DNA of 64,000 nt, taken from assembly GCF_003095655.1 (NCBI RefSeq), contig NZ_CP029151.1, forward strand, positions 2,665,001 through 2,729,000, in the 5' to 3' direction. This document shows, piece after piece, positions 4,394 to 63,746 of this stretch (position 1 is the first letter of the stretch; each line of letters opens with the position of its first letter). Made by a program: the position numbers and the translations under genes. The notes under the pieces were generated by a model, which was not told where the DNA came from, searched no databases, and was given only the letters and a program-made list of their open reading frames with translations. Source of the stretch: Dokdonia sp. Dokd-P16 (GTDB lineage: Bacteria > Bacteroidota > Bacteroidia > Flavobacteriales > Flavobacteriaceae).

Positions 4394-4403
4394 TTTCGCG
4401 AAA
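4394..4403. repeat. Core of the iterated palindrome (TTTCGCGAAA)
   Basis: This copy has only the right outer arm (TTTTCGCGAAAGC), so it is a partial member of the GCTTTCGCGAAAGC family. It lies in the divergent gap between the VOC and helicase genes, 92 nt before the helicase start. It is the leftmost copy in the window. Confidence 0.85.
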
Positions 4404-4494
4404 GCATACCTATTGTTATTGTTTACAAAAGAGCTATAAAATCATGGATTGTGGTTTTAATTCTTGGGATCAATCCGTACTTTGTACCCCTGCT

Positions 4495-6831: not shown

Positions 6832-6857
6832 TAATTGTATAAGCTGATATAAAACAC

Positions 6858-6892
6858 AAATGCTGACGTCTAATAGATGTCAGCATTTTTTT
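6858..6892 (+). terminator. Rho-independent terminator of the helicase gene
   Basis: The stem TGCTGACgTCT / AGAtGTCAGCA with loop AAT is followed by a run of seven T on the plus strand, 26 nt after the helicase stop codon. Confidence 0.85.
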
Positions 6893-6906
6893 ATGGTGAT
6901 ACCTAC

Positions 6907-6920
6907 GCTTTCGCGAAAGC
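6907..6920. repeat. Iterated palindrome GCTTTCGCGAAAGC
   Basis: An exact 14-mer in the convergent gap between the helicase terminator and the end of the esterase gene. It is the only intergenic copy in the window not upstream of any gene start. Confidence 0.95.
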
Positions 6921-6967
6921 TAAACAGTAACACTCCCTATCTCGTCATACTGTTTAATACGATGTGC

Positions 6968-7867: not shown

Positions 7868-7972
7868 TAAGATAATTTTAAGGTATAACGCACAGATTTT
7901 ACTTTTATGTTAAGGTTGCGTTAGTTTCTGCGAGTTATTTTAAGCTTATAAGTAACTTTAAATAAAAAAGTT

Positions 7973-8185
7973 ATGATCAAAGAAGGAACAAAAGTACAGT
8001 GGAAATGGGGTAACGGTACCGCAGAAGGAAAAGTAACCGAAACATTTACAGAGAGTGTAACCCGCACTATCAAGGGCAGCGAAGTTACTCGCAATGGAGA
8101 GTCTGGTAATAAGGCGCTATACATCGAGCAAGAAGATGGAGATAAAGTACTCAAACTTGAGGACGAAGTAGAGCGCGTAGATTAG
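7973..8185 (+). CDS. DUF2945 (hypervirulence-associated Tudor-like) small protein
   Basis: A 70-residue soluble protein, MIKEGTKVQWKWGNGTAEGKV..., ending in KVLKLEDEVERV. The WKWGNGTAxGKV opening and the conserved length match the DUF2945/HVA-Tudor family, a small beta-barrel domain of unknown function found widely in bacteria. A near-consensus -7 element (TAACTTTA) lies about 25 nt upstream of the ATG. It is divergent from the esterase gene and about 70 bases from the next gene, which could be co-transcribed. Confidence 0.8.
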   Translation: MIKEGTKVQWKWGNGTAEGKVTETFTESVTRTIKGSEVTRNGESGNKALYIEQEDGDKVLKLEDEVERVD

Positions 8186-8194
8186 GGAAGGTAT

Positions 8195-8208
8195 GCTTTC
8201 GCGAAAGC
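8195..8208. repeat. Iterated palindrome GCTTTCGCGAAAGC
   Basis: An exact copy, 10 nt after the DUF2945 stop codon and 50 nt before the preferred start of the Sua5/YciO gene. A longer frame for that gene would read through it as LSRKRA, but those residues are not family sequence. Confidence 0.95.
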
Positions 8209-8258
8209 GTGCACGTCATATTAATTGTTACTCGTACATTCACAAAAAAAATACAGCC

Positions 8259-12795: not shown

Positions 12796-12809
12796 GCTTT
12801 CGCGAAAGC
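12796..12809. repeat. Iterated palindrome, 16-mer form
   Basis: An exact CGCTTTCGCGAAAGCG (12795-12810) in a 48-bp gap, 30 nt upstream of the glycosyltransferase start on the minus strand. Confidence 0.95.
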
Positions 12810-14754: not shown

Positions 14755-14768
14755 GCTTTCGCGAAAGC
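14755..14768. repeat. Iterated palindrome, 16-mer form
   Basis: An exact CGCTTTCGCGAAAGCG (14754-14769) between lptD and ridA, 19 nt upstream of the ridA start codon on the minus strand. Confidence 0.95.
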
Positions 14769-17730: not shown

Positions 17731-18858
17731 ATGATGCGTAAAAAAAACATATTTAATATTTATTTAACAACTATGCTGCTTGTAGGTAGTTGTTTTTCAG
17801 GCGCTTTCGCGAAAGCGCAATCCAATAATTCTTCTAAAAAATTTAAAGTCGTTCTTGATGCGGGACATGGAGGAGGCGATAGTGGTAACCGTGGAAATGG
17901 ATACTATGAGAAAAACATTGCCCTTAATGTTGTCTTAGCATTAGGAAAAGAATTAGAAAAGCAGTCTGATGTCGAAGTAATTTATACTAGGAAAACAGAT
18001 GTTTTCTTAGAATTATGGGAGCGAGCAGATATTGCAAATAATGCAAATGCAGACCTTTTTATAAGTGTACATTGTAATTCCCACTCCTCACAAGCAAAAG
18101 GAACAGAAACTTTTGTACTTGGTATAGACGGTAACGCTAAAAATATGGCAATTGCCAAAAAAGAAAACTCAGTAATCTTACTGGAGGAAAACTATGAGAA
18201 GCGATACGCAGGTTTTGATCCTAATAGTCCCGAAACGAGTATAGGTCTTGAACTCATGCAAGAAGAATACCTAGATCAAAGTATAAATCTAGCAAGCTTT
18301 GTAGAAAATGAATTTACAGGAAGCGTGAAGCGCAGCAGTCGTGGTGTAAAGCAAGCGATTTTCTGGGTATTGCACAGGTCTGTAATGCCTAGTGTGCTTA
18401 TAGAAACAGGTTTCCTTACTAATAATGAGGAAGGGAAGTTTTTAAACTCTAGTGCAGGTCAAGAAAAAATGGCCAAAGCAATAAGTAAGGCAGTTACTAA
18501 TTATAAGAAAAGTATACAGATAAATGAGCGTGTAGAGATTGCAGATCATGTAGTGGAAACTCCAAGTGCTCCGGTTGTTGCTACGAAGTCTAAGGTGGTA
18601 GAGGGCGTAACTTTTAAAGTACAACTGGCAGCGAGTAAACGTAAGCTAGAAACAAAGTCTTATAATTTTAAAGGACTTAAGTCAATAAGCCGTTCTAAAG
18701 ATGGTCGTTTGTATAAGTATTATTATGGCGCAACCTCAGATTATAATTTAGCTCACAAGCAGCTGCAAGAAGCAAAAAGTAAAGGATACAAAGAGGCCTT
18801 TATCGTATCTTTTAATAAAGATAATATTAAAGTGCCGCTCAATCAAGTGTTAAATTAG
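17731..18858 (+). CDS. N-acetylmuramoyl-L-alanine amidase (Amidase_3)
   Basis: A 375-residue periplasmic zinc amidase that cleaves the lactyl-peptide bond of peptidoglycan. The signal peptide ends GAFAKA-Q near residue 30; this end is encoded by an iterated palindrome. The catalytic domain shows VVLDAGHGGGDSGNRG (first zinc His), YYEKNIAL (zinc Glu), LFISVHCNSH (second His) and VLIETGFLTN (catalytic Glu). The last 75 residues (TFKVQLAAS..., KYYYGATSDYNLAH...) are a SPOR-like domain that would bind denuded septal glycan. It diverges from lptD and starts an envelope series with the MCE gene after it. Confidence 0.93.
   Translation: MMRKKNIFNIYLTTMLLVGSCFSGAFAKAQSNNSSKKFKVVLDAGHGGGDSGNRGNGYYEKNIALNVVLALGKELEKQSDVEVIYTRKTDVFLELWERADIANNANADLFISVHCNSHSSQAKGTETFVLGIDGNAKNMAIAKKENSVILLEENYEKRYAGFDPNSPETSIGLELMQEEYLDQSINLASFVENEFTGSVKRSSRGVKQAIFWVLHRSVMPSVLIETGFLTNNEEGKFLNSSAGQEKMAKAISKAVTNYKKSIQINERVEIADHVVETPSAPVVATKSKVVEGVTFKVQLAASKRKLETKSYNFKGLKSISRSKDGRLYKYYYGATSDYNLAHKQLQEAKSKGYKEAFIVSFNKDNIKVPLNQVLN
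17803..17816. repeat. Iterated palindrome inside the amidase signal peptide
   Basis: An exact CGCTTTCGCGAAAGCG (17802-17817) read in frame as A-F-A-K-A, directly before the probable signal peptidase site (AKA-Q). Confidence 0.95.
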
Positions 18859-21242: not shown

Positions 21243-21573
21243 ATATTTTATAATTGTAGGGTTATTGTTGAGTTTCGCTTTCGCGAAAGCGCAATCTCCT
21301 ACAAAGAATTATAAAATAGATAGCTTACAATTTAAAATGTACACCCGTCTTTTTGTAAATGAACAGTTACAAATAGACAGTGTTACCGTAAAAAAAATTT
21401 TTTGTGATTATTGTAGTGACTCTCAAATGAGTGTGCTACGTGAAGAAGCAATGAGGCAATCCCTTATAGAGCGCTATAATCCGAAATATAATAAACCAGG
21501 AGAACACAGACTGGCCCTTTATGTGAGATTCAGTAAAGAAGATTTTAAGAATTTAAACGACAACCATGAATAA
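21232..21573 (+). CDS. Small secreted protein between two Fe-S genes
   Basis: A 113-residue protein starting at MKHRYFIIVGLLL (ATG 21232); its first 11 bases overlap the end of the preceding Fe-S gene, so translation may be coupled. The signal peptide ends FAFAKA-QS, again encoded by an iterated palindrome. The mature part is about 90 residues with two Cys (FCDYC) and no family I recognise. It overlaps the next gene by 8 bases, so all of these genes look like one operon. Confidence 0.82.
   Translation: MKHRYFIIVGLLLSFAFAKAQSPTKNYKIDSLQFKMYTRLFVNEQLQIDSVTVKKIFCDYCSDSQMSVLREEAMRQSLIERYNPKYNKPGEHRLALYVRFSKEDFKNLNDNHE
21277..21290. repeat. Iterated palindrome inside a signal peptide
   Basis: An exact CGCTTTCGCGAAAGCG (21276-21291), read as A-F-A-K-A before the predicted cleavage site AKA-Q of the small secreted protein. 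Confidence 0.95.
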
Positions 21574-23556: not shown

Positions 23557-23570
23557 GCTTTCGCGAAAGC
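23557..23570. repeat. Iterated palindrome, 16-mer form
   Basis: An exact CGCTTTCGCGAAAGCG (23556-23571), 93 nt upstream of the GH3-serine hydrolase start, in a 147-bp gap between co-directional genes. Confidence 0.95.
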
Positions 23571-26635: not shown

Positions 26636-26649
26636 GCTTTCGCGAAAGC
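26636..26649. repeat. Iterated palindrome GCTTTCGCGAAAGC
   Basis: An exact copy 27 nt upstream of the bshA start codon, in the 91-bp gap after the GH3-serine hydrolase gene. The left side extends to TACGC, the right side does not. Confidence 0.95.
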
Positions 26650-28392: not shown

Positions 28393-31308
28393 ATGGAAAT
28401 TAGTTTGAAAAAATTAGAAATCGAGTTTGATGGAGAGTTACATGTAGATCAACTACATAAAATTATCTATGCAACAGATGCATCTGTTTATCGCAAGATT
28501 CCGCTTGCTGTTGCATTTCCCAAAACTGTAAATGATATAAAGAAGTTATGCGCTTTCGCGAAAGCGCAACAAATTACCCTCATTCCAAGAACGGCGGGAA
28601 CCTCCCTTGCAGGACAATGTGTGGGCGAGGGTATCGTAGTAGATGTGTCTAAGCATTTCACAGAGATTATTCACTTTGATAAAGAAAAGCAGCAGGTAAC
28701 GGTACAACCTGGTGTTATAAGAGATGAGCTCAATTTATTTTTAAAGCCTCACGGTTTGTTTTTTGGGCCAAATACTTCTACAGCAAATAGATGTATGATA
28801 GGAGGTATGGTGGGAAACAACTCATCTGGAACCACCAGTATCAAGTATGGTGTCACCAGAAATAAAGTAGTTCGATTAAAAACGGTATTATCAGATGGTA
28901 GTGATGCTATTTTTGAAGAACTAGATGCAGTTGGCTTTCGCCAAAAATTGAACCTTGACAACTTGGAAGGTTCCATTTACAAGACTGCGAATGATTATTT
29001 TTCTCAAAGTGCCGTTCGCAGTGAGATTAAAGAGCAGTTTCCAAAACCTGAAATCCATCGCCGAAATACGGGTTACGCACTTGATGAAATTGCTAATGCC
29101 GCACCATTTGAGGAGAACGGAAAACCTTTTAATTTCTGTAAACTATTATCTGGAAGTGAAGGTACACTTGCATTTACCACAGAAATCACCTTGCAGTTAA
29201 ACGTGCTGCCGCCTGCTTTTGGCGTTATGGTAGCTGGACATTACAAAGATTTAGAATCATGTTTACAAGCGGTAGTTCCTGCCATGAAGCATGATTTATA
29301 TACTTGTGAGATGATGGATAAGGTGATTCTAGATTGTACAAAAAACAATCGTGAGCAAGAGAAAAACAGATTTTTTATAGAAGGCGATCCAGCAGCAATA
29401 TTAATGTTTGAGTTAAGGGATGCTACTCTTGAAGGAGCCATGCAGCAAGCAGAAGCCCTTATAGATAGTTTGCAGCTAGATGGGCAAGGGTATGCATATC
29501 CTATATTACAAGGAGACCAAATTGCACAAGCGATGGATTTGCGCAAAGCTGGTCTTGGCTTGCTGGGGAATATGATAGGAGATAGAAAGGCCGTGGCATG
29601 TATAGAAGATACAGCAGTAGCGCTAGATGACCTTGCTCCATACATAAGTGAATTTACTGCGCTCATGAAAAGACATGAACAAGATGCCGTGTACTACGCT
29701 CATGCTGGCGCTGGAGAGATACACTTGCGTCCTATTCTTGATTTGAAAACGTCGCAGGATGTAGCACTTTTTAGACAGATAACTACAGACGTAGCGCATC
29801 TGGTTAAAAAATACAATGGCTCGATGAGCGGCGAGCATGGAGATGGTATCGTACGCGCAGAGTTTATCTCTATGATGGTAGGTGATGAGAATTATGAGGT
29901 AATGAAAGCTGTAAAAAAAGCTTTTGATCCCCATCAAGTATTTAATGCAGGAAAAGTAATCGATGCTTTCCCGATGGATGAAAGCTTGAGGTATGAAGTA
30001 GATCGTAAGGAGCCAGTGGTGGAGACGCTCATGAATTTTGAGGATAACCAAGGAATTCTAAGACTCGCCGAAAAATGTAATGGAAGCGGCGATTGCAGGA
30101 AATTACCAAGCGCTGGAGGTGCGATGTGCCCTAGTTATAGAGCAACACGAGATGAGAAGGATACCACTAGAGCAAGAGCAAATGCGCTAAGAGAGTTTCT
30201 AACTACATCAGATGAGCCTAATAAATACGACCACACAGAATTAAAGGAGGTCTTTGACCTTTGTTTGAGCTGTAAAGCCTGTGCTAGTGAGTGTCCTAGT
30301 AATGTGGATGTAGCTACATTAAAAGCAGAGTTTGAGTATCAATATCAGAAAACTAACGGGAGCAGCCTTCGTACAAAACTGTTTGCAAACACGACAAAAA
30401 TCAACAAACTAGGAGCATTTTCTCCTAGAATATATAATACGTTACTTCGTATAACTGCGGGTATAGCAAAAGCTAGTTTAGGTATAGCAAAAGAGCGAAG
30501 TCTACCTTTATTAAATGTATTTTCAGATCCTGTAGGAGTATCTGGTATAGCTCATACTAGTGTCAATCAGAAATTCAAAAGTGAAACTAAAGTCATTTTA
30601 TATATTGATGAGTTCACTCAGTATCTAGATGGAAACATTGGTCAAGATGCATTAACGTTGTTACGTCGCCTTGGTTATGAGGTGGAAGTTGTGAAAAGCC
30701 ATGATAGTGGGCGCTCTTACATTTCAAAAGGATTTCTTGAGGAGGCTAAGACACTGGCAAATAAAAATATAGAGCTTTTTAAAAATGTAGACAAGGATAC
30801 TGTAATTCTAGGTATTGAACCTTCGGCTATTTTGTCATTTAGAGACGAGTATCTTAGGCTTGCAGATGATGTGGAGATGGCCAAAAAGCTTTCGGAACAA
30901 TCATTTTTAATTGAAGAGTTTTTACATAGTGAAATCAAACGAGGAGTTATTACCTCCAAGCAATTTTCGGCGAAAGCTAAAAGATTGAAAATTCATGGTC
31001 ATTGTCATCAGAAAGCACTTTCTTCTGTGTCACATACTTTTGCCATTCTTAACCTTCCTTTAAATTATACTCCTACTATTATACCTTCGGGTTGTTGTGG
31101 TATGGCGGGCAGTTTTGGGTATGAAAAAGAACATTATGGGGTGAGTATGAAAGTGGGTGAGCAAACGCTATTTCCTGCTGTAAGAAAGGCTAGTAATGAT
31201 ACCATTATCGTTGCAAACGGTACAAGCTGTAGACATCAAATTAAGGACGGTACTGCACGTGTAGCTGTGCATCCTATAACGGTATTAAATGATGCGCTTT
31301 TAGTGTAA
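28393..31308 (+). CDS. FAD-linked oxidase / Fe-S fusion (GlcD-GlcF-like)
   Basis: A 971-residue oxidoreductase. Residues about 20-530 are an FAD-binding PCMH/VAO dehydrogenase: VAFPKTVNDIKKLC, IPRTAGTSLAGQCVGEGIVVD, GNNSSGTTSIKYG and GSEGTLAFTTEITL, with DHxx-type SGEHGDGIVRAEF near 476. The C-terminal 400 residues carry a Cys motif CNGSGDCRKL...AMCPSYRAT, a 4Fe-4S site CLSCKACASECPSNVD near 625, and CCG-type segments HGHCHQKALSS and PSGCCGMAGSFG. This layout belongs to D-lactate/2-hydroxyacid dehydrogenases feeding the respiratory chain. The precise 2-hydroxyacid is not shown. An iterated palindrome encodes the AFAKA part of the N-terminal segment LCAFAKAQQ. Confidence 0.92.
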   Translation: MEISLKKLEIEFDGELHVDQLHKIIYATDASVYRKIPLAVAFPKTVNDIKKLCAFAKAQQITLIPRTAGTSLAGQCVGEGIVVDVSKHFTEIIHFDKEKQQVTVQPGVIRDELNLFLKPHGLFFGPNTSTANRCMIGGMVGNNSSGTTSIKYGVTRNKVVRLKTVLSDGSDAIFEELDAVGFRQKLNLDNLEGSIYKTANDYFSQSAVRSEIKEQFPKPEIHRRNTGYALDEIANAAPFEENGKPFNFCKLLSGSEGTLAFTTEITLQLNVLPPAFGVMVAGHYKDLESCLQAVVPAMKHDLYTCEMMDKVILDCTKNNREQEKNRFFIEGDPAAILMFELRDATLEGAMQQAEALIDSLQLDGQGYAYPILQGDQIAQAMDLRKAGLGLLGNMIGDRKAVACIEDTAVALDDLAPYISEFTALMKRHEQDAVYYAHAGAGEIHLRPILDLKTSQDVALFRQITTDVAHLVKKYNGSMSGEHGDGIVRAEFISMMVGDENYEVMKAVKKAFDPHQVFNAGKVIDAFPMDESLRYEVDRKEPVVETLMNFEDNQGILRLAEKCNGSGDCRKLPSAGGAMCPSYRATRDEKDTTRARANALREFLTTSDEPNKYDHTELKEVFDLCLSCKACASECPSNVDVATLKAEFEYQYQKTNGSSLRTKLFANTTKINKLGAFSPRIYNTLLRITAGIAKASLGIAKERSLPLLNVFSDPVGVSGIAHTSVNQKFKSETKVILYIDEFTQYLDGNIGQDALTLLRRLGYEVEVVKSHDSGRSYISKGFLEEAKTLANKNIELFKNVDKDTVILGIEPSAILSFRDEYLRLADDVEMAKKLSEQSFLIEEFLHSEIKRGVITSKQFSAKAKRLKIHGHCHQKALSSVSHTFAILNLPLNYTPTIIPSGCCGMAGSFGYEKEHYGVSMKVGEQTLFPAVRKASNDTIIVANGTSCRHQIKDGTARVAVHPITVLNDALLV
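28552..28565. repeat. Iterated palindrome inside the FAD oxidase gene
   Basis: An exact CGCTTTCGCGAAAGCG (28551-28566), in frame as A-F-A-K-A at about residues 54-58, a surface helix where FAD oxidases normally carry a similar A-rich segment. Confidence 0.95.
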
Positions 31309-32321: not shown

Positions 32322-33386
32322 ATGGCAGGTAATACGTACGGAACTATATTTAAGGTCACAACTTTTGGTGAATCACACGGTAAGGCTATAGGTGGAATTA
32401 TAGATGGATGTCCCGCCGGTTTAAGTATTGACTTTGATGCGATTCAGCATGATTTAGATCGTCGTAAGCCTGGTCAATCTAAAATTGTAACACAACGTAA
32501 GGAGCCAGATACCGTAGATTTCTTATCAGGAATTTTTGAGGATAAAACAACAGGAACACCTATTGGGTTTCAGATAGTAAATACTAATCAAAAATCTAAG
32601 GATTACGGTCACATTAAAGATACTTACAGACCTAGTCACGCAGATTACACCTATGATAAAAAGTATGGTAACCGTGATTACCGTGGCGGAGGAAGATCTT
32701 CGGCTAGAGAAACAGCTAGTCGCGTTGTAGCTGGAGCTATTGCAAAACAATTTTTGAAGGGTATATCATTTCACGCATTTACTAGTGCCGTGGGAGATTT
32801 ATCTATGGATACACCATATCAAGATCTTGACTTTAGCGAGATTGAAAAAAATGATGTTAGGTGTGCAGATGCCGATTTCGCGAAAGCGTGTGAAAAAAAA
32901 ATTAAAGAAATAAAAAAACAAGGTGACACCATAGGAGGTGTTATAACTTGTGTAATACAAAATGTGCCTGTAGGTCTTGGAGAGCCAGTTTTTGATAAGC
33001 TTCATGCAGAGCTAGGAAAAGCAATGCTATCTATAAATGCTGTAAAGGGATTTGAATACGGAAGCGGTTTTGAAGGAGCAACTATGAAAGGAAGTGACCA
33101 TAACGACCATTTTAATACAGACGGAACTACTAAAACTAACCTGAGTGGCGGTGTTCAAGGAGGTATTTCTAACGGGATGGACATTTACTTCAAGGTGGCA
33201 TTTAAGCCAGTTGCCACTGTAATGCAAAAGCAAGAAACTATAAATGCCGCTGGGGAAGTAGTGGAAATGCAAGGAAAGGGAAGGCACGATCCGTGTGTAG
33301 TACCTCGTGCAGTGCCTATTGTAGAGGCGATGGCAGCACTTGTTATTGCAGATTTTGTACTACGAAATAAATCTATTAGATTGTAG
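32322..33386 (+). CDS. aroC: Chorismate synthase
   Basis: A 354-residue enzyme that makes chorismate from EPSP, the last shared step of aromatic amino acid synthesis; it needs reduced FMN. I start at [12 protein letters not shown] (32322) rather than six residues earlier. Motifs are [80 protein letters not shown] and the C-terminal [18 protein letters not shown]. It is a single gene with its own promoter. The palindrome core in its middle (DADFAKAC) lies in a variable loop. Confidence 0.97.
32876..32885. repeat. Core of the iterated palindrome inside aroC
   Basis: TTTCGCGAAA with one outer arm only (right side AAAGCG). Read as D-F-A-K-A-C; the left arm GATTTC has the outer bases GC replaced by GA. 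Confidence 0.85.
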
Positions 33387-37750: not shown

Positions 37751-37764
37751 GCTTTCGCGAAAGC
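37751..37764. repeat. Iterated palindrome, 16-mer form
   Basis: An exact CGCTTTCGCGAAAGCG (37750-37765) in the 40-bp gap between GH16 and the HAD gene, 17 nt upstream of the HAD start codon. Confidence 0.95.
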
Positions 37765-38555: not shown

Positions 38556-38569
38556 GCTTTCGCGAAAGC
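38556..38569. repeat. Iterated palindrome, 16-mer form
   Basis: An exact CGCTTTCGCGAAAGCG (38555-38570), 44 nt upstream of the thioesterase start. A near-consensus -7 element TAACTTTA lies between it and the gene, at 38587-38594. Confidence 0.95.
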
Positions 38570-42268: not shown

Positions 42269-42282
42269 GCTTTCGCGAAAGC
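42269..42282. repeat. Iterated palindrome, 16-mer form
   Basis: An exact CGCTTTCGCGAAAGCG (42268-42283) in a 73-bp divergent gap; it lies 34 nt from the dipeptidase start and 25 nt from the methyltransferase start. Confidence 0.95.
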
Positions 42283-46810: not shown

Positions 46811-46830
46811 TACGCGTTCGCGAAAGCGTA
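46811..46830. repeat. Variant copy of the iterated palindrome
   Basis: TACGCGTTCGCGAAAGCGTA has the flanks of the family but one arm differs by one base (CGTTCG in place of CTTTCG). It lies in the leader 14 nt before the next start. A decayed or forming copy. Confidence 0.7.
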
Positions 46831-49491: not shown

Positions 49492-51219
49492 TTAAACGCC
49501 TAATGCATTTTTTATACCAGCAAGACGTTTATCTAATGAAGCAGAAATTGTGTCATACTCATTTAATGAAGCTAGAGGAGCATTTACACTTATATAAAAC
49601 TTTACTTTAGGTTCTGTGCCACTTGGTCGCGCGGCAACTTTACTGCCATCTTCTGTATAAAAGATAAGTACATTAGACTTTGGAACATCAATATTAGTGG
49701 TTTCTCCAGTAATAAGGTCACGACTTATAGATGATTGATAGTCCTCTACACGTATCACCTTACTTCCATTAATTTCTTTCATAGGCTCAAGACGAAGATC
49801 TTTGAGCATTTGTTTGATTTCTGCTGCGCCAGATTGTCCCTTTTTTACAAGAGCAATTAATGTTTCCTTGTAAAAACCGTGTTTTACGTACAGTGTTTTA
49901 AGTTTTTCAAACAGTGTTTGTCCTTCTTCTTTTGCTTGAGCAGCAATTGTACATGCGAGTAGGGTAGCGGTTACAGCATCCTTATCTCTTACAAAATCGC
50001 CAACCATGTACCCGAAGCTTTCTTCACCACCACCTATAAAGTGTTGGTTAGGATAATCTTCAATCATTTTGGCAATCCATTTAAAGCCTGTAAGTCCTGT
50101 TTTGCATTCTACATCATATGCTGCAGCAAGAATATCCATCATAGGTGTAGATACGATGGTGCTTCCTATAAATGGTGATGAGTGTTGATCTGCGCTTTCG
50201 CGAAAGCGTTCTAATAAATAATCTGTCATTAAGATCATGGTTTGATTACCATTTAAAATGGTAAGCTTGCCATCATCTCCTCTCACAGCAATCCCTAGTC
50301 GATCACAGTCTGGGTCTGTACCTATGACAATATCTGCATTTTTTTCTTCTCCTAGTTCAAGCGCCATTTTAAGAGCAGCAGTTTCTTCTGGATTAGGAGA
50401 AACTACGGTAGGGAAGTTACCATCTGGTACTTCTTGTTCTTTTACAATGTTAAGAGTGGTAAAACCAGCTTGTTTTAATGTATCTGGCACGAGTGTGATT
50501 GAGGTACCGTGTAACGAGGTGAAAACGATATTTAAGTTCTTTTTTACTTCATTAGTAAGGCCAAAAGATACATTTGCAACACTTGCATCTACAAAGGCTT
50601 TATCTACCTCTTCATCCACAAGTTCAATAAGGGAGTCATCTCCTTCAAATTTTATAGCGCTAAAATCAAGCGCTTCAATAATAGCTATTATTTCTGCATC
50701 TTGTGGTGGTACAAGTTGACCGCCATCTTCCCAGTATACTTTGTAACCGTTATATTCTGGCGGGTTGTGACTTGCAGTGAGGACAATACCGCACTGGCAA
50801 TCTAGATGACGCACAGCAAAACTTAATTCTGGTGTAGGTCTAAGATCAGAAAATAGGAATACTTTAATCCCATTTGCCGAAAATACATTTGCAACCACCT
50901 GGGCAAGCTCCTTACTATTATGACGGCAATCATAAGCGATAGCAACCTTAATTTTCTTATCAGGAAACTGTTTGTGTAGGTAGTCAGATAGACCTTGAGT
51001 GTTTTTTCCCAAGGTATATTTATTAATTCTGTTAGTTCCAGCTCCCATGATACCGCGCATACCGCCAGTACCAAATTCTAGATTTTTATAGAAACTATCT
51101 GCAAGCTCATCTGGATTGTGAGCGATATTTTCTTTGATAGCTTGTTGAGTTTCCTCATCAAAGGTCTCTGTAAGCCATGCATTTGCTTTTTCTAAAATAG
51201 CGGGATCGTGGTATACCAT
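49492..51219 (-). CDS. Phosphohexose mutase (PGM/PMM family)
   Basis: A 575-residue alpha-D-phosphohexomutase of the long (PGM2/PMM-like) type. Catalytic phosphoserine is in LTASHNPPEYNGYKVYWEDGGQ near residue 145. The metal-binding loop is GTDPDCDRLGIAV near 303, the sugar-binding loop GGGEESFGYMVGDFVRDKD near 398, and the phosphate-binding loop RPSGTEPKVKFY near 530. It interconverts hexose 1- and 6-phosphates for glycogen and nucleotide-sugar synthesis. It has a TAnnTTTG -7 element upstream (CAAAAATA on the plus strand, 51242-51249). An iterated palindrome encodes RFRES in its middle. Confidence 0.93.
   Translation of the reverse strand: MVYHDPAILEKANAWLTETFDEETQQAIKENIAHNPDELADSFYKNLEFGTGGMRGIMGAGTNRINKYTLGKNTQGLSDYLHKQFPDKKIKVAIAYDCRHNSKELAQVVANVFSANGIKVFLFSDLRPTPELSFAVRHLDCQCGIVLTASHNPPEYNGYKVYWEDGGQLVPPQDAEIIAIIEALDFSAIKFEGDDSLIELVDEEVDKAFVDASVANVSFGLTNEVKKNLNIVFTSLHGTSITLVPDTLKQAGFTTLNIVKEQEVPDGNFPTVVSPNPEETAALKMALELGEEKNADIVIGTDPDCDRLGIAVRGDDGKLTILNGNQTMILMTDYLLERFRESADQHSSPFIGSTIVSTPMMDILAAAYDVECKTGLTGFKWIAKMIEDYPNQHFIGGGEESFGYMVGDFVRDKDAVTATLLACTIAAQAKEEGQTLFEKLKTLYVKHGFYKETLIALVKKGQSGAAEIKQMLKDLRLEPMKEINGSKVIRVEDYQSSISRDLITGETTNIDVPKSNVLIFYTEDGSKVAARPSGTEPKVKFYISVNAPLASLNEYDTISASLDKRLAGIKNALGV
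50194..50207. repeat. Iterated palindrome inside the hexose phosphate mutase gene
   Basis: An exact CGCTTTCGCGAAAGCG (50193-50208). The minus-strand gene reads it as R-F-R-E-S-A, a third reading frame not used by the other in-gene copies. Confidence 0.95.
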
Positions 51220-51308: not shown

Positions 51309-52250
51309 TTATAAAGTTTCTTTAATATTATATCTCTTTTTATCACGTTTTGATCTTAGTACGAGTTCGCCTAAGAAGCCGGCAATAAATAGTTGAATAC
51401 CCATGAGCATCGCAACAAGTGATATATAAAATTGTGGTCTCTCTGTAATCAGTCTGCCCGCTCTATGAAAGAATACTTTGTCTATACCTAAGTATCCGGC
51501 AAATCCAAAACCTATAACAAACATGAGTACACCTAGTGCTCCAAAAAGGTGCATAGGTCGCTTTCCAAAACTTCCTAAAAACCAAATCGTGAGTAAATCT
51601 AAGAAGCCATTTAAAAAGCGTTCCATACCAAATTTAGTCTCACCATACTTACGAGCTTGATGTTGTACTACTTTCTCACCTATGTTTGAAAATCCTGCAT
51701 TCTTAGCAAGTACGGGTATGTAACGGTGCATCTCACCATATACATCTACAGTTTTGATCACCTCTTTTTTATAAGCTTTTAAACCACAATTAAAGTCGTG
51801 TAGTTTGAGTCCGCTTGTTTTTCTTGCTGCGGCGTTAAAGAGTTTGCTAGGTAAGTTTTTTGCAATTACAGAGTCGTAGCGTTTCTTTTTCCATCCTGAG
51901 ACCAGGTCATACTTATCTTGAATAATCATGCGGTATAGGTCTGGAATTTCCTCTGGATTGTCTTGCAAATCTGCATCCATGGTGATAATTACATCACCTT
52001 GAGCAGCCTCAAAACCTGCATGAAGTGCTTGTGATTTACCGTAGTTACGGTTAAAGCGAATTCCTTTGATGTTATCACGCTTTCGCGAAAGCGTTTCAAT
52101 CACCTCCCATGAAGCATCTGTGCTTCCATCATCTATAAATAGGATTTCATAAGAAAAACCATTGGTTTCCAGAGTTTCTGAAATCCAATGGTGTAGTTCT
52201 TTAAGTGATTCTACCTCATTAAGTAGAGGTATGACAACAGATATTTGCAT
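51309..52250 (-). CDS. Family 2 glycosyltransferase, membrane (DPM1/ArnC-like)
   Basis: A 313-residue GT2 enzyme. The N-terminal catalytic domain has VVIPLLNEVESLKEL, FIDDGSTDASWEV near residue 40, NRNYGKSQALHAGFEAA, MDADLQDNPEEIP near 92 (metal site), SGWKKKRYD and HRYIPVLAKN. Two C-terminal helices follow (LFGALGVLMFVIGFGFAGYLG and PQFYISLVAMLMGIQLFIAGFLGELVL). This layout fits transfer of a sugar to a polyprenyl phosphate carrier. The sugar is unknown. It is followed on the same strand 9 bases earlier by the DUF4199 gene, so the two may be one operon. A palindrome encodes LSRK. Confidence 0.92.
   Translation of the reverse strand: MQISVVIPLLNEVESLKELHHWISETLETNGFSYEILFIDDGSTDASWEVIETLSRKRDNIKGIRFNRNYGKSQALHAGFEAAQGDVIITMDADLQDNPEEIPDLYRMIIQDKYDLVSGWKKKRYDSVIAKNLPSKLFNAAARKTSGLKLHDFNCGLKAYKKEVIKTVDVYGEMHRYIPVLAKNAGFSNIGEKVVQHQARKYGETKFGMERFLNGFLDLLTIWFLGSFGKRPMHLFGALGVLMFVIGFGFAGYLGIDKVFFHRAGRLITERPQFYISLVAMLMGIQLFIAGFLGELVLRSKRDKKRYNIKETL
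52079..52092. repeat. Iterated palindrome inside the GT2 gene
   Basis: An exact CGCTTTCGCGAAAGCG (52078-52093) read on the minus strand as T-L-S-R-K-R. Confidence 0.95.
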
Positions 52251-53557: not shown

Positions 53558-54886
53558 ATGTTTGATAATTTAAGTGATAAGTTAGATAAAGCCCTACACG
53601 TACTCAAAGGTCACGGTAGCATTACGGAAGTAAACGTTGCAGAGACACTTAAGGAAGTGCGTCGTGCTCTTATAGATGCAGATGTTAACTTTAAGACTGC
53701 AAAGGAATTTACAAACCGTGTTAAAGAAAAAGCTTTAGGATCTGACGTATTAACGACCTTACAACCTGGGCAGTTAATGGTGAAGCTTGTAAAAGATGAG
53801 CTTACAGAGTTAATGGGAGGTGATGCAGAAGGGATTAATCTTTCTGGTACTCCATCTATTATATTAATGTCAGGTTTACAAGGTTCTGGTAAGACAACCT
53901 TTTCAGGTAAGCTTGCAAACTTTCTTAAAACCAAGAAAACAAAAAAACCTTTATTAGTAGCCTGTGATGTATATCGTCCAGCGGCTATTGATCAGCTACA
54001 CGTAGTAGGAGATCAGATTAAGGTAGATGTATATTCTGATCGTGATGAGAAGAATCCTGTAAAGATTGCTCAAGATGGTATCGCTTTCGCGAAAGCAAAC
54101 GGTCACAACGTAGTAATCATTGATACAGCAGGTCGTCTTGCTGTAGATGAGGCGATGATGAAAGAAATTGCAGATGTACATGCTGCAATACAACCACAAG
54201 AGACACTCTTTGTAGTAGACTCGATGACTGGTCAAGATGCTGTAAATACAGCAAAAGCCTTTAATGACATTCTTAACTTTGACGGGGTTATCCTTACAAA
54301 GCTAGATGGAGATACAAGAGGTGGAGCAGCAATCTCTATCAAATCTGTAGTAAACAAGCCTATTAAATTTATAGGTACAGGGGAGAAAATGGAAGCGATA
54401 GATGTATTCTATCCTTCACGTATGGCAGATCGTATTCTTGGAATGGGAGATGTTGTGTCACTTGTAGAGAGAGCACAAGAGCAGTTTGATGAAGAAGAAG
54501 CTAGAAAGCTTCAAAAGAAAATTGCAAAAAACCAATTCGGTTTTGACGATTTCTTAAAGCAAATCCAGCAAGTAAAGAAAATGGGTAACATGAAGGACCT
54601 TATGGGAATGATCCCAGGTGCCGGAAAGATGCTCAAAGATGTAGACATAGATGACGATGCATTTAAGCATATAGAAGCAATCATTCACTCCATGACGCCT
54701 GGTGAGCGAGAAAATCCTACTACGATTAACGCAAGTCGTAAAAAGCGTATAGGGAAAGGATCTGGTACCTCGGTACAACAAGTAAATCAGTTACTCAAGC
54801 AATTTAATCAAATGAGTAAGATGATGAAGATGATGCAAGGAGGCGGAGGCCGCAAGATGATGCAGATGATGAATCAAATGAAATAA
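53558..54886 (+). CDS. ffh: Signal recognition particle protein Ffh
   Basis: A 442-residue SRP54 GTPase that brings nascent inner-membrane and secreted proteins to FtsY. The N-domain is residues 1-90. The G-domain has GLQGSGKTTFSGKLA near residue 110, YRPAAIDQL, DTAGRLAVDEA near 191, TKLDGDTRGGAA near 248 and GTGEKMEA. The methionine-rich M-domain ends with MMQGGGGRKMMQMMNQMK. Its length is normal. An iterated palindrome encodes AFAKA in the G domain just before the VVIIDTAGR motif, at normal family spacing, so no residues were inserted. It is ended by a terminator. Confidence 0.97.
   Translation: MFDNLSDKLDKALHVLKGHGSITEVNVAETLKEVRRALIDADVNFKTAKEFTNRVKEKALGSDVLTTLQPGQLMVKLVKDELTELMGGDAEGINLSGTPSIILMSGLQGSGKTTFSGKLANFLKTKKTKKPLLVACDVYRPAAIDQLHVVGDQIKVDVYSDRDEKNPVKIAQDGIAFAKANGHNVVIIDTAGRLAVDEAMMKEIADVHAAIQPQETLFVVDSMTGQDAVNTAKAFNDILNFDGVILTKLDGDTRGGAAISIKSVVNKPIKFIGTGEKMEAIDVFYPSRMADRILGMGDVVSLVERAQEQFDEEEARKLQKKIAKNQFGFDDFLKQIQQVKKMGNMKDLMGMIPGAGKMLKDVDIDDDAFKHIEAIIHSMTPGERENPTTINASRKKRIGKGSGTSVQQVNQLLKQFNQMSKMMKMMQGGGGRKMMQMMNQMK
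54083..54096. repeat. Iterated palindrome inside ffh
   Basis: An exact GCTTTCGCGAAAGC read as I-A-F-A-K-A-N, in an essential gene, 15 nt before the codons of the DTAGR GTPase motif. Confidence 0.95.
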
Positions 54887-56147: not shown

Positions 56148-56846
56148 TTATTTGATGACGTTTACATCTGTAAAGTATAGTCTAAAGCTACCATCTTCAC
56201 TCTTGTGATCTGTAGCTATCGAAAGTCCCTCAATATTCTTGTATTCTTGAAATGTTGTAATCATTGAGGGTTCGGTAGCATTTCCTTTTCTAAAAACCCA
56301 TTCGGTGATTACATAATCATCGCCGTAGTAAAAGTCGTAGGCGTCTCCTGGCGTGTAACCTCCTTCATTTCCGTAGAGAAGGGTAAGTTTTTTAGTTTGC
56401 TTTCGCGAAAGCGGACTCATTACACTGTCGGTTACTTTTATTGAAGTTCCTTCATCCCAAACAAGTTGATAAGGAGCAAGAAGCCAGTATTTGTCATTTA
56501 TAAACCCTTGGTCTGCTTGCATAGAGATGCTGTCTACGGTAGCACGATTATAAGAAATGGTATCTCCAGCGGCAATCATAGTCACATCATTTGTGACTGG
56601 TTTCCAAGACCATGAACGACTTGCTACAGTAGCGCCGTTGCGATCTACATTAAATGTAAAGTCAAGTTGTTTTACATCTTTCCAGTTTGCAAGACCGTTT
56701 GCATAAGCAACTTTTTCTGCCTCTGTGGTTGGTGTGAATGTAGCTTCAACTTCGAGCTTATTCGTATCTTCTATAGTTGTGTTATTTCCCTCTTTACAGC
56801 TTAGGATAATTAGAGAAGATGCAAGAAGCATTGAGTATAATTTCAT
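56148..56846 (-). CDS. Lipoprotein of unknown function
   Basis: A 232-residue protein starting MKLYSMLLASSLIILSC, with a lipoprotein signal at Cys17 (an upstream Met at 56867 adds no signal features). The mature protein has VEATFTPTTEAEKVAYANGLANWKDVKQLDFTFNVDR and a beta-rich domain ending YFTDVNVIK. It resembles DUF6503-type flavobacterial lipoproteins in general plan, but I am not sure of the family. An iterated palindrome encodes its PLSRKQ segment. It shares an operon with the small membrane protein. Confidence 0.72.
   Translation of the reverse strand: MKLYSMLLASSLIILSCKEGNNTTIEDTNKLEVEATFTPTTEAEKVAYANGLANWKDVKQLDFTFNVDRNGATVASRSWSWKPVTNDVTMIAAGDTISYNRATVDSISMQADQGFINDKYWLLAPYQLVWDEGTSIKVTDSVMSPLSRKQTKKLTLLYGNEGGYTPGDAYDFYYGDDYVITEWVFRKGNATEPSMITTFQEYKNIEGLSIATDHKSEDGSFRLYFTDVNVIK
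56399..56412. repeat. Iterated palindrome inside a lipoprotein gene
   Basis: An exact GCTTTCGCGAAAGC read on the minus strand as L-S-R-K, near the middle of the lipoprotein. Confidence 0.95.
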
Positions 56847-56909: not shown

Positions 56910-56926
56910 GCTATATTTAATATAGG

Positions 56927-58221: not shown

Positions 58222-58644
58222 CTAGTTTTGACTAGTCAACTGTAACGACCACTTTTTAAATCCTGCCTCAAGCTTATGAGCAGTATGTGCTAGTTGCTGT
58301 ACACTATGACAGCGATTGCGGTAAAGGACTTCGAGCTTTTTACAAAGTTTAGAAAGTTGGCTTACGCGCTCCTCTATATGCTTTTGAAAATAAAGCTTTT
58401 TTGAATAGTCGGCAGTTATTGCGGCTTCGGCAATGGACATAGGTAGTGATAGCGCTGTGTGTGAAATAAATACAGATAGATTTGTGGCAAGTTCTTTTTC
58501 TGAGGGACAGTTTAAAACACTGTGTTGCAAATTTCCGTTAGACAGCTTTCGCGAAAGCGTAAAGAGATCCATAGCCTCATTGTATAAAGCGAGGCGCTTT
58601 ATATCAAAAGATTGCTGAAACTTAGATTCTTGAGCTATTTTCAT
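58222..58644 (-). CDS. Helical protein, four-helix-bundle type
   Basis: A 140-residue soluble, all-helical protein starting at MKIAQESKFQQSFD (58644). Segments RLALYNEAMDLFTLSRKL, LSLPMSIAEAAI, KKLYFQKHIEERVSQLSKLCKKLEVLY and LAHTAHKLEAGFKKWSLQL suggest a bundle similar to the S23/IVP (avd-like) four-helix family, although the fit is loose. The conserved residues of that family are only partly visible. The DNA reading LSRK is an iterated palindrome. It is divergent from the Lrp gene. Confidence 0.65.
   Translation of the reverse strand: MKIAQESKFQQSFDIKRLALYNEAMDLFTLSRKLSNGNLQHSVLNCPSEKELATNLSVFISHTALSLPMSIAEAAITADYSKKLYFQKHIEERVSQLSKLCKKLEVLYRNRCHSVQQLAHTAHKLEAGFKKWSLQLTSQN
58555..58568. 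repeat. Iterated palindrome inside a helical protein gene
   Basis: An exact GCTTTCGCGAAAGC read on the minus strand as T-L-S-R-K-L. The right flank keeps GCGT but the left flank is A. Confidence 0.95.
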
Positions 58645-59187: not shown

Positions 59188-59196
59188 TAAAGAAGC

Positions 59197-60158: not shown

Positions 60159-61691
60159 ATGCAAAATAACGTCCTCATATTAGACTTCGGGTCTCAATAC
60201 ACGCAGTTAATAGCACGTAGAGTGCGAGAATTAAATATATACTGTGAGATAAAACCATTTAATAATCCTCCTAAAGATCTTTCTTCTTATAAGGCTGTAA
60301 TCCTCTCGGGATCGCCGCATTCTGTAAGAGGAGAAGATGCTCCGCATCCAGATCTTTCAGAAATAAAAGGTAAAAAACCTCTTCTAGGAGTTTGTTACGG
60401 AGCGCAATACCTAGCTCATTTTTATGATGGTGAAGTAGGACAATCTAATACTCGTGAGTATGGACGAGCAAAACTTTCTGTAGTAGACGAAGGAGAACTT
60501 TTCTTAGAAGGTGTTTATGTAGGAAGTCAGGTGTGGATGAGTCATAGTGATACCATCAAGAAATTACCAGCAGGAGCAAAACGTATTGCATCTACACATG
60601 ATGTAGAAAACGCTGGATACAAACTAGAGGGAGAAGAAACTTATGGGATACAGTTTCACCCAGAAGTATATCACTCTACAGACGGGAAGCAGATTTTAGA
60701 AAACTTCTTAGTGAAAATTGCAGGAGTAGCTCAGACATGGACGCCAGATGCCTTTGTAGATACTACGGTTGCAGATCTAAAAGCAAAGCTTAATGACGAT
60801 CGTGTAATTTTAGGACTCTCTGGAGGTGTAGATAGTACAGTCGCAGCTACATTACTACATAAAGCAATAGGCAAGAACCTATATTGCATTTTTGTAAATA
60901 ATGGATTGTTACGTAAGGATGAATATACGCAAGTACTCAAACAGTACGAAGGTATGGGGCTTAATGTAAAAGGTGTAGATGCTTCGGCACGTTTCTTGGA
61001 AGCGCTAGAGGGTGAGAGTGATCCAGAGACTAAGCGTAAAGCGATAGGTCGCGTTTTTGTAGAAGTATTTGATGACGAAAGTAAACTTGTAGAAAATGCA
61101 AAGTGGCTTGGTCAAGGTACTATCTACCCAGACGTTATTGAATCTGTAAGTGCAACGGGAGGACCTAGCGCAACTATAAAATCTCACCATAACGTGGGAG
61201 GATTGCCAGATTATATGACACTTAAGGTTGTAGAGCCGTTGAGAATGTTATTTAAAGATGAAGTACGTAGAGTAGGAGCGAGTATGGGATTATCACCTGA
61301 GCTATTAGGTAGACATCCATTTCCTGGACCTGGTCTTGCGATTAGAATATTAGGTGATATTACAGCCGAGAAAGTGCGCATCTTGCAAGAAGTAGATCAT
61401 ATATTTATCAGCGGTCTTCGTGAGTGGGGATTATATGATCAAGTATGGCAAGCAGGAGCGATGTTATTACCAGTAAACTCTGTAGGAGTGATGGGCGATG
61501 AACGCACGTATGAAAAATGCGTTGCACTTAGAGCTGTAGAGAGTACAGATGGAATGACGGCAGACTGGGTAAATCTTCCTTATGAATTTTTACAAAAAGT
61601 GTCTAACGATATAATTAATAAGGTAAAAGGCGTTAATAGAGTAGTCTATGACATAAGCTCTAAGCCACCTGCTACAATTGAGTGGGAATAA
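60159..61691 (+). CDS. guaA: GMP synthase (glutamine-hydrolysing)
   Basis: A 510-residue enzyme that turns XMP into GMP with glutamine and ATP. I start at [17 protein letters not shown] (60159), the family start, rather than five residues upstream. The class I glutamine amidotransferase has [14 protein letters not shown] with the nucleophile Cys near residue 84 and IQFHPEVYH. The ATP-pyrophosphatase site [12 protein letters not shown] is near residue 225. The C-terminal dimer domain ends in KPPATIEWE. It precedes the LysM protein gene by 9 bp, so the two may be co-transcribed. Confidence 0.98.
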
Positions 61692-61700
61692 TTCTTAACT

Positions 61701-63746
61701 ATGAAAAAATATATTACTGTAATTGCGATAGTTGTTTTTAGCGCTTTCGCGAAAGCGTGCTCAACACCAGCAGCTACAATATCTAGCAATACGGCGATTG
61801 TTCAAAAGTTTGTTTCTCATCAGGTAAAAGCTGGAGAAACCATCAAGGACATAGCCAACAAGTTTGGTATTACTGAAAAAGAAATCACTAGGCTCAATCC
61901 AGACGCTCGTGAGGAAGTTTATGAAGGCTTGGTATTGATATTGCCATCTACGGCTACTGCTGTTAGAAATGCCGATAGTGTTACTCAGGATAACCTAAAG
62001 TTTAAAACACACAAGGTAAAACGCAAGGAAACACTTTATAGCATCTCAAAAAAGTATGGTGTTTCTCAAGAAGTGATAAAACGTTTTAATAAGTCTTTAT
62101 ATAGCGAAGTGTTACGTAAAGGTGATAAACTGCGCATACCTGTCAACTATAGCGAAAATAGTGTTACAGATGCAGTAGTAAATGTGCCGCAAACGCAAGC
62201 AGCGTATATAACGCACAATGTAATTGCAAAAGAGACTAAATACGGTATCGCTAGAAAGTATGGAATTACTATAGCAGAGCTTGAGAGTACAAATCCATCA
62301 CTTAGAGATGGACTTAAAATAGGCGATGAGCTTAAAGTTCCTAAGGCAAATTTTGCAAAAAGCACCATCATAGATAATGATGAGTATGCCTTTTATGAAG
62401 TGCAAAAAGGAAACACTTTATACAGTTTATTACGCATTTTTAAACTAGAAGCAGATGAGTTAATCGCACTAAATCCAGCATTAGACGAAGGTCTTAAAGA
62501 GGGGATGATCCTCAAAGTGCCTAAGGGAAGTCCAGGTTCTGGTACCCCAACGCAAGCCGTTGCAGTAAACCAAGGAAATCCTGACGTTACTATTCTAGAA
62601 GGTGAAAAAGGATCTCTGGTTAATCAATTAACGGATTTCTCTCCTAAACGTGTAGCTATTATGCTTCCATTTGGTGTGGGGCGTGTAAATGCTGGTAATA
62701 CTGAAGTAAATGAAAATCTACTTAGAGATGATCGTATCCTTAGACTATCACTAGATTTATATAGTGGAATGCTTATGGCAGTCCAAGATGCTAAAAAAGC
62801 TGGTATAACCACAATTGTTGATACTTATGACACATCATACAATCGCAAAGATGGCGCGGCAACAAATGCACGTAAAGTAGAAACGATTATACAGTCTAAT
62901 GATTTTTCTGGTGTTAATGCAGTAATAGGGCCACTTCTAGGTAATAACATAGACAGAGCGTCTTCACTACTCAACGCACGTAAGATACCAGTAATCTCAC
63001 CTATGTCTAACAAAGTAGCTGGTGGAAATAACATTTTTGTATCAAGACCAGAAGATAATTTGTTAAGTAAAAAGATGCTTTCTTACTTAAAAGCTAATGG
63101 GGCAGGAAAAAATATTGTTGTAATAGCAGACAAGAAAAATAGTGCTACATTATCAAAGATAAAGGCAATTTTTCCTAATCTAAAGACGGTAACACCTCGT
63201 TCTAACGATAAAGGATATTTCTTGTATCCAGGAGATATCCCAGCACAGCTTTCTAGCGAACTAGAAAACTGGGTGATTGTAGAGACTAACGATGTTCCTT
63301 TGATTAGTAGTGTAACCACAAGTCTTAATGGGCAGTTAGGTACTATGAAGGTAGTGATGTTTACTACTGATAGGGGTAATGCTTATGAAAGTGATGAGAT
63401 ACAACATGATCACCTAAAGAATCTCGCTTTTCATTTCCCATCTGCCGAGAGAGAATATAAGTACAGTCAAGCAAAAGCATTTATTGATAGTTATGAAACC
63501 ATGTATGGAGTGAGTCCAAGCGAATCTGCCATAAAGGGATATGATTTGATGTATGATACTTTACTGCGTCTAGCATACTCATCAGATTTATATGCTGCGG
63601 CAGCTACCGGTGTGGAGACAGATTATGTAGAAAACAAGTTTAAGTATAGCTCCAGAGCAAAAGGCGGATTTTCAAATAACGCGGTATATCTTATGAAATA
63701 TACAGATACATTAGAGCTTGAAGAAGTACCTTTTATAGAAGAATAA
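61701..63746 (+). CDS. LysM protein with periplasmic-binding-like domain
   Basis: A 681-residue envelope protein. The signal peptide ends AFAKAC, so a lipoprotein Cys is possible but the -3 residue (A) is unusual. Four LysM peptidoglycan-binding modules follow to about residue 275 (HQVKAGETIKDIANKFGI, HKVKRKETLYSISKKYGV, HNVIAKETKYGIARKYGI, YEVQKGNTLYSLLRIFKL). The remaining 370 residues (KRVAIMLPFGVGRVNA, LDLYSGMLMAVQDAKKAG, GVNAVIGPLLGNNIDRAS) resemble type I periplasmic-binding/receptor domains, as in LpoA-like proteins. A role in cell-wall synthesis is plausible. An iterated palindrome encodes its signal peptide end. Confidence 0.86.
   Translation: MKKYITVIAIVVFSAFAKACSTPAATISSNTAIVQKFVSHQVKAGETIKDIANKFGITEKEITRLNPDAREEVYEGLVLILPSTATAVRNADSVTQDNLKFKTHKVKRKETLYSISKKYGVSQEVIKRFNKSLYSEVLRKGDKLRIPVNYSENSVTDAVVNVPQTQAAYITHNVIAKETKYGIARKYGITIAELESTNPSLRDGLKIGDELKVPKANFAKSTIIDNDEYAFYEVQKGNTLYSLLRIFKLEADELIALNPALDEGLKEGMILKVPKGSPGSGTPTQAVAVNQGNPDVTILEGEKGSLVNQLTDFSPKRVAIMLPFGVGRVNAGNTEVNENLLRDDRILRLSLDLYSGMLMAVQDAKKAGITTIVDTYDTSYNRKDGAATNARKVETIIQSNDFSGVNAVIGPLLGNNIDRASSLLNARKIPVISPMSNKVAGGNNIFVSRPEDNLLSKKMLSYLKANGAGKNIVVIADKKNSATLSKIKAIFPNLKTVTPRSNDKGYFLYPGDIPAQLSSELENWVIVETNDVPLISSVTTSLNGQLGTMKVVMFTTDRGNAYESDEIQHDHLKNLAFHFPSAEREYKYSQAKAFIDSYETMYGVSPSESAIKGYDLMYDTLLRLAYSSDLYAAAATGVETDYVENKFKYSSRAKGGFSNNAVYLMKYTDTLELEEVPFIEE
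61743..61756. repeat. Iterated palindrome inside the LysM protein signal peptide
   Basis: An exact CGCTTTCGCGAAAGCG (61742-61757) read as A-F-A-K-A followed by Cys, the third signal peptide in the window that ends this way. Confidence 0.95.

Follow-up and report, generated by a model that had tools for sequence, protein, structure and literature searches.

A highly iterated palindrome in Dokdonia and other Flavobacteriaceae, a candidate DNA-uptake sequence

Introduction

The highly iterated palindrome HIP1 of cyanobacteria is linked to cognate methyltransferases in one report (PMC4390886). Uptake sequences, the other class of chromosomal repeat considered here, are described in passages of published work as over-represented to an extent that falls with mismatch load (PMC1939737), as conserved, in neisserial genomes, inside permissive stretches of DNA (PMC2397512), and as occurring about once per kb in Haemophilus, the uptake drive being expected to give a fairly even spread (PMC7811141). 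Within the Flavobacteriaceae, parts of two reports present Riemerella columbina as a competent species that prefers its own DNA, for which k-mer counts gave no clear uptake motif (PMC7965970), and R. anatipestifer as a species in which the gene set for transformation is unusual (PMC8459023). The present text deals with GCTTTCGCGAAAGC, a 14-bp palindrome which recurs in a 64,000-nucleotide stretch of the genome of Dokdonia sp. Dokd-P16 (contig NZ_CP029151.1, positions 2,665,001 to 2,729,000), referred to below as the window. An earlier note on this DNA named HIP1 as the nearest parallel, and the two are indeed close in kind.

The palindrome is abundant, restricted to certain lineages, conserved in position, seldom found in close pairs and bordered by G-poor flanks, and in one gene it can be traced to point mutations. 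It is tentatively interpreted as a DNA-level protein-recognition site read with two-fold symmetry, of which the likeliest role, held with reserve, would be that of an uptake (self-recognition) sequence kept by transformation drive.

Sequence and abundance of the palindrome

The window contains 18 exact copies of GCTTTCGCGAAAGC, and 100 dinucleotide shuffles of it contain none. All 18 had been listed in the earlier note, 17 of them at the right coordinates, the one placed at 58555 starting in fact at 58545. Its count of 12 among the 18 that extend to a 16-mer is borne out, and the two 10-bp cores that it reported at 4394 and 32876 are real, lying within decayed copies at 4392..4405 and 32874..32887. 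Decayed copies in the window, with one or two mismatches, number three, each of them exact in at least one relative. In the whole genome, a single contig of 3,623,447 bp, GCTTTCGCGAAAGC occurs 808 times, with a mean density of one per 4.5 kb, and the reversed pattern does not occur, hence the number is not near chance and the copies are not confined to the region in which they were noticed. As a perfect palindrome in great genome-wide excess, GCTTTCGCGAAAGC belongs to the descriptive class of highly iterated palindromes.

A 624-kb sample of the genome comprises 127 copies, 63 intergenic, 60 coding and 4 at stretch edges; the last are left out of the coding and intergenic counts, which refer to the 123 placed copies and to labels given by a simple gene caller. 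The excess is graded by mismatch load: 127, 24, 35, 38, and 161 copies with zero to four mismatches, against means of 0, 0.075, 1.55, 14.8, and 142 for 40 control palindromes of like composition.

Anatomy of the site and its flanks

Each of the 169 TTTCGCGAAA cores found in the 624-kb sample bears a GC arm on at least one side, and 127 of the 169 bear it on both. In 200 kb of G190 (G numbers denote the genomes compared, G000 being the Dokdonia genome itself) at least one arm is present on 42 of 43 cores. A full arm is thus obligatory on one side and preferred on the other, which suggests that the site is read by a dimer.

The flanks were profiled on 282 copies (564 flanks) pooled from several Dokdonia and Nonlabens genomes, some of them possibly representing the same ancestral site. 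Outward from the palindrome the consensus reads G (82%), T (54%), A (74%), A (55%), and beyond it G makes up 2–13% of bases up to base 23, except for 16% at base 20, compared with 18% in the genome. The depletion of G is found in intergenic flanks (0.067 vs 0.169) and in coding ones (0.085 vs 0.189), within genes in both directions, and in Nonlabens taken alone (37 copies); it is weak in G190, the DNA of which has 46% GC. The left and right flanks resemble each other no more than shuffled flanks do, a test for extended palindromes around the copies gave no signal, and the profile contains no T-run. The statement of the earlier note that the copies have no shared flanks is therefore right as to sequence and wrong as to composition, since G, T, A, A are followed on both sides by a G-poor stretch of about 25 bases.

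As the outward strands are G-poor, the strands running 3' into the site are richer in G and T. RecA has a preference for GT-rich strands, and the palindrome could be a processing or recombination site, the target of a nuclease or recombinase, with the G-poor outward strands aiding strand exchange on both sides. This explanation is improbable, even though it agrees with A/C-rich, G-poor outward flanks that are common to genic and intergenic copies and to Dokdonia and Nonlabens, and with the lack of G depletion around chance copies in 25 unrelated named loci. In the third carrier genus the asymmetry of the flanks is weak, no enzyme of this kind was found, and some 800 cut sites would be costly.

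Placement in genes and along the chromosome

Copies are 3.9 times denser between genes than within them (0.48 vs 0.12 per kb; binomial P 2e-13), with intergenic densities of 0.65 per kb between tandem, 0.52 between divergent, and 0.46 between convergent genes. Those inside genes make use of all three frames (30, 14, and 16 copies). Occurring in genes and between them, in every frame and orientation, the copies are unlike promoters or terminators. In the gaps between tandem genes they are shifted towards the stop codon on the upstream side (median relative position 0.37 for 41 copies, P 0.004), which would be in keeping with an element acting in RNA, either a terminator or an mRNA hairpin, as would the short hairpin that the sequence could form. 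An RNA-level role is nevertheless highly unlikely, given that 60 of the 123 placed copies are coding, that divergent intergenic regions are about as dense as convergent ones, and that the flanks have no T-run, are G-poor in both directions within genes, and match each other no better than shuffled ones. Intrinsic terminators were considered as a class of their own; the copies are not placed after genes with a T-run.

Close pairs are few: gaps below 1 kb account for 6% of the 116 gaps, vs an expected 19%, a deficit reached in 0 of 5000 simulations. Taken together the gaps, which reach 36.8 kb, are spread no less widely than random ones, and 28 blocks of 20 kb are mildly under-dispersed (index 0.52, P 0.019). 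In the sampled blocks the sign of the GC skew switches near 1.4 Mb, where the origin accordingly seems to lie, and again near 3.1–3.3 Mb. Every sampled block, also near the inferred terminus, holds copies, and there is no empty domain.

The stretch from about 100,001 to 114,300 of the same genome is a run of open reading frames with repeated elements of up to 300 bp between them, several with CGATAGCTATCG, and is similar to a gene-cassette array. The 20 kb between 100 and 120 kb hold a single exact copy of the palindrome, at 118,849 of the genome, outside the array.

Origin and conservation of the sites

The copy within ffh allows its origin to be followed. Among the loci of the family sample outside Dokdonia, the 28 nearest all have Ala-His codons at this position and lack the site, while the exact site, encoding Ala-Phe, is present in 14 of 18 Dokdonia genomes; in Nonlabens, two of three genomes have Tyr there and none of the three has the site. 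Judging from these sequences, the ffh copy probably arose through point substitutions, with a change of His to Phe. None of 47 protein alignments across coding sites (45 of them of ffh) shows a gap near the site, a test for which non-carrier stretches supplied a homologue for only 3 of the 60 coding copies.

Window sites are better conserved than their surroundings in the three relatives that align over much of the window. In G399 (93.5% identity) 15 of the 18 sites are exact, with 47% survival of random 14-mers; in G400 (90.6%) 14 of 15, with 30%; and in G397 (77.7%) 12 of the 15 alignable sites, with 6%. The loss of sites thus does not rise with divergence among these genomes, which suggests, on small numbers, a balance of decay and replacement. 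Relatives that align over little of the window have exact sites in 3 of 4 cases (G402), 1 of 3 (G206), 1 of 1 (G404 and G410 each), and 0 of 1 (G412). The DNA next to the sites is permissive in G397, with an identity of 0.70 at 7–25 bases from the site centre vs 0.78–0.79 beyond 200 bases.

A mobile repeat of the REP or MITE type, spread by a transposase, would also explain many copies with a palindromic body, yet it is scarcely credible here. There is no common sequence past the motif and its immediate flank, the ffh site came without an insertion, none of the 47 protein alignments, nearly all of ffh, is gapped there, and relatives differ at sites mostly by single substitutions, with a few gapped or unalignable cases. 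The REP/RAYT class, extragenic and spread by insertion, was likewise considered; half of the placed copies or nearly so (60 of 123) are coding, and the ffh copy points to substitution. The earlier note's opinion that the repeat is neither a transposon nor a usual REP element is upheld. A force that acts on DNA, and has the strength to fix an amino-acid change in a universal protein, makes and keeps the sites with little regard to transcription.

Distribution among genomes

All 18 Dokdonia genomes examined, including that of Dokd-P16, carry between 369 and 905 copies. In a family sample of 397 genomes at least one copy is present in 80, and hundreds in only six, namely two of Dokdonia (808 and 857), three of Nonlabens (578, 664, and 609), and G190 (408 copies, 0.17 per kb), which is one genome of a third carrier genus of Flavobacteriaceae; the remaining 74 positive genomes have 1–19 copies each. 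Of 396 Bacteroidia genomes with a completeness of 90% or more, 25 contain the motif, and none of these except the Dokd-P16 genome itself has more than four copies. The 80 named loci listed belong to Dokdonia in 31 cases, to Nonlabens in 24 (four being of strain BBFL7, which we take to be a Nonlabens), and to others in 25, of which 24 are single-copy and one, of Aquimarina, has two copies. In a tree of one gene, ffh, built on 60 chosen rows with seven Dokdonia and a third genus of deviating base composition, monophyly of the carriers as a whole is rejected (p-AU 0.0076) and that of Dokdonia plus Nonlabens is not (0.30). No other comparable iterated palindrome was found in 20 kb from each of 20 other genera, mostly near relatives by ffh, a length at which a sparse motif escapes detection.

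Outside the carriers, G076 has all of its 16 copies on a single contig and within 78 kb, a density close to that seen in carriers, and this block looks like transferred DNA. A pair of copies 933 bp apart recurs in G076, G078, G087, G101, G160, and G215, and in the Aquimarina locus; in G078 both are inside an outer-membrane efflux gene, which adjoins genes for an AcrB-type pump, a multicopper oxidase, and a heavy-metal ATPase. The island copies (28 in the stretches examined, not independent of one another) have G-poor flanks, unlike the copies in the 25 other named loci. Such an island would probably have passed through a carrier lineage, and the motif may mark DNA that was once in one. The motif is also seen at matching places in stretches L264, L265, L268, L270, and L271, from several genera of Flavobacteriaceae, in L264 inside genes of the metal-resistance type.

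An orphan DNA methyltransferase with linked repair, making or keeping a repeat of the HIP1 type as has been proposed for the cyanobacterial one, would produce the same picture of an iterated palindrome in genes and between them, and GCTTTCGCGAAAGC contains the palindromes TCGCGA and CGCG. This origin is very unlikely, however. Neither G000 nor the Nonlabens genome G242, with 664 copies, has a match to PF00145, PF01555, or PF02086; in the 16 carriers searched, PF00145 is missing from 9, PF01555 above its cut-off from 14, and PF02086 from 6; and outside the motif TCGCGA occurs about as often as expected (48 vs 42). The site of a typical type II methylase is, moreover, shorter than GCTTTCGCGAAAGC.

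Possible function

Two forces fit the sites, either selection for the binding of a protein or a bias in uptake and recombination. For the second, a sequence-specific protein of natural transformation would read the site, which would mark DNA as self; fragments bearing it would enter cells and recombine more frequently, and for this reason sites made by point mutation would spread and decayed ones would be replaced. This model is preferred, with caution, because the graded mismatch pattern, the conservation, and the fewness of close pairs agree with reports on the uptake sequences of Neisseria (DUS) and Pasteurellaceae (USS), and because the Flavobacteriaceae include a competent species with a preference for its own DNA and, in another species, an unusual transformation gene set. 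The scarcity of the motif in the cassette-like stretch at 100–120 kb was counted in its favour as well.

A more specific version of the uptake model is a possibility put forward with somewhat greater hesitation. GCTTTCGCGAAAGC would then be a palindromic uptake sequence, to our knowledge the first that is palindromic and the first in Bacteroidota, one or both arms of which would be read by a symmetric receptor or processing enzyme, the G-poor strands forming part of the signal. Shared by genera that the ffh tree does not unite in one clade, this language might define a community of DNA exchange across genera.

Several points weigh against uptake. We know of no uptake sequence that is a palindrome. 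One site per 4.5 kb is sparser than in Haemophilus, no part in uptake is known for G-poor flanks, and among the open-access matches listed no report of competence in Dokdonia or Nonlabens was found. Carrier or not, each of 30 genomes has ComEC, which so does not discriminate between the two groups. In Riemerella a DUF5689-type gene seems, judging by locus tags, to be a neighbour of comEC; inspection by eye revealed no such gene next to comEC of the Dokd-P16 genome. In G399 and G400 the bases at 15–60 from the site centre are of about average conservation, the dip being slight and limited to the nearest bases, for which reason the argument from permissive flanks rests mainly on G397. Finally, a selected chromosomal binding site would yield most of the same statistics, and the further a block lies from the inferred origin, the fewer copies it tends to hold, a weak trend (31 blocks of 20 kb, Spearman -0.41, P 0.02) with 4.5 copies per block near the origin and 3.5 far from it (P 0.08). 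The gradient could stem from a function in the chromosome or from a higher content of acquired DNA around the terminus; it lowers the weight of both forms of the uptake model and raises that of the chromosomal one.

In the last-named model, the main rival, an abundant nucleoid-associated, chromosome-domain, or segregation protein binds the site, and selection keeps each copy. It agrees with a two-fold symmetric site of 14–16 bp with a half-site requirement, with a constrained flank of about 25 bp on either side and conservation position by position, with the rarity of close pairs and the lack of a transcription-related orientation, and with the gradient just described. It is still rather doubtful, as the copy number is far above the tens generally attributed to the sites of Noc, SlmA, and MatP, every sampled block has copies, the inferred terminus included, and the patchy occurrence across genera would be odd for a core chromosome function. 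The earlier note had offered a chromosome-organising site, a methylase site, an uptake signal, and a repair or recombination tag without ranking them; the uptake signal fits best, the methylase is weakened, and the chromosome-organising site is the chief competitor.

Two comEC observations may be added. In stretch L490 of the Dokd-P16 genome (9804-11828 and 18168-18977) comEC contains a copy of the motif, and about 6 kb away there is a gene with a DRGH motif, presumably like that of non-specific endonucleases. Of the three Dokdonia checked, the two others (L491 and L492) have a motif copy inside comEC too.

If the palindrome is an uptake sequence, it would provide a defined DNA substrate for a receptor search in Bacteroidota, whose transformation genes are unusual, and would show that a self-recognition sequence may take the form of a palindrome. 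As a chromosome-organising site it would be an unusually dense one. Either way, a simple comparison of the site with a scrambled site is possible in culturable marine bacteria.

Copies in the window

The copies of the window are collected in Table 1. Two of them (17803 and 61743) encode AFAKA, in both cases at the end of an apparent signal peptide. Positions 1-4391 have a low GC content (30.5% in the first 4 kb vs 37% overall) and no exact copy of the motif, and comprise an ATPase-like gene with a score just below the Pfam cut-off; this stretch may be acquired DNA.

Table 1. Exact and decayed copies of the palindrome in the window, with their setting and state in relatives
Feature	Position	Strand	Setting and state in relatives
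Exact 14-mer	6907..6920	.	intergenic, convergent genes; exact in G399, G397, G400
Exact 14-mer	8195..8208	.	intergenic; exact in G399, G400; not in G397
Exact 14-mer	12796..12809	.	intergenic, divergent genes; exact in G399, G397, G400
Exact 14-mer	14755..14768	.	intergenic; exact in G399, G397, G400
Exact 14-mer	17803..17816	.	in amidase gene, encodes AFAKA, apparent signal peptide; exact in G399, G397, G400
Exact 14-mer	21277..21290	.	intergenic; exact in G397, G400; one-base decay in G399
Exact 14-mer	23557..23570	.	intergenic; exact in G399, G400; not in G397
Exact 14-mer	26636..26649	.	intergenic; exact in G399, G397, G400
Exact 14-mer	28552..28565	.	in FAD-linked oxidase gene; exact in G399, G400; not in G397
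Exact 14-mer	37751..37764	.	intergenic; exact in G399, G400; G397 not aligned
Exact 14-mer	38556..38569	.	intergenic; exact in G399, G400; G397 not aligned
Exact 14-mer	42269..42282	.	intergenic, divergent genes; exact in G399, G397, G400; not in G402
Exact 14-mer	50194..50207	.	in phosphoglucomutase/phosphomannomutase gene; exact in G397, G400, G402; decayed in G399, G206
Exact 14-mer	52079..52092	.	in glycosyltransferase gene; exact in G399, G397, G400, G402; decayed in G206
Exact 14-mer	54083..54096	.	in ffh (SRP54); exact in 14/18 Dokdonia; probable point-substitution origin including His to Phe
Exact 14-mer	56399..56412	.	in called coding sequence; exact in G399, G397
Exact 14-mer	58545..58558	.	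called intergenic; exact in G399, sole relative aligned there
Exact 14-mer	61743..61756	.	in LysM-domain gene, AFAKA just before Cys of apparent lipobox; exact in G397, decayed in G399
Decayed copy, 2 mismatches	4392..4405	.	exact in G397
Decayed copy, 1 mismatch	32874..32887	.	exact in G399, G397, G400
Decayed copy, 1 mismatch	46814..46827	.	exact in G399, G400

Comparison with known systems

In the open-access papers searched the motif does not seem to have been described. Its 12-mers have no match in open-access full text (subscription journals and preprints being outside this scope), matches of a 10-mer there are unrelated, judging from titles and the starts of abstracts, and the phrase 'highly iterated palindrome' was not found there together with Bacteroidetes. 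Among the matches listed, open-access papers on Dokdonia, Nonlabens, and palindromes give no sign of the motif in their titles or the starts of their abstracts, and the main text of the HIP1 report makes no mention of Dokdonia, Flavobacteria, or TCGCGA (PMC4390886).

With HIP1 (GCGATCGC) the palindrome of Dokdonia has in common that it is perfect, present in hundreds of copies, genic as well as intergenic, and restricted to a lineage. It is not HIP1 itself, since the sequences differ: GCGATCGC has 8 bp, and GCTTTCGCGAAAGC is unrelated to it, spans 14–16 bp, has one obligatory arm and G-poor flanks, and resides in a genome in which none of the three methyltransferase families searched for (PF00145, PF01555, and PF02086) has a match.

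The sites of Noc, SlmA, MatP, and ParB are palindromic dimer sites of a length like that of GCTTTCGCGAAAGC. The TTTC..GAAA halves of the latter resemble those of parS and Noc sites as generally described, but are 2 bp closer to each other, and the copy number of GCTTTCGCGAAAGC is far higher than that of any of the four.

The DUS of Neisseria and the USS of Pasteurellaceae, as described in parts of the reports on them, are like GCTTTCGCGAAAGC in being chromosome-wide, in an excess graded by mismatches, in conserved sites, which lie within permissive DNA clearly in G397 and at most slightly so in G399 and G400, in few close pairs, and in extended compositional flanks. GCTTTCGCGAAAGC differs from them in being palindromic, in having about a quarter of the density of USS, and in its occurrence in Bacteroidota, where its role in uptake is putative.

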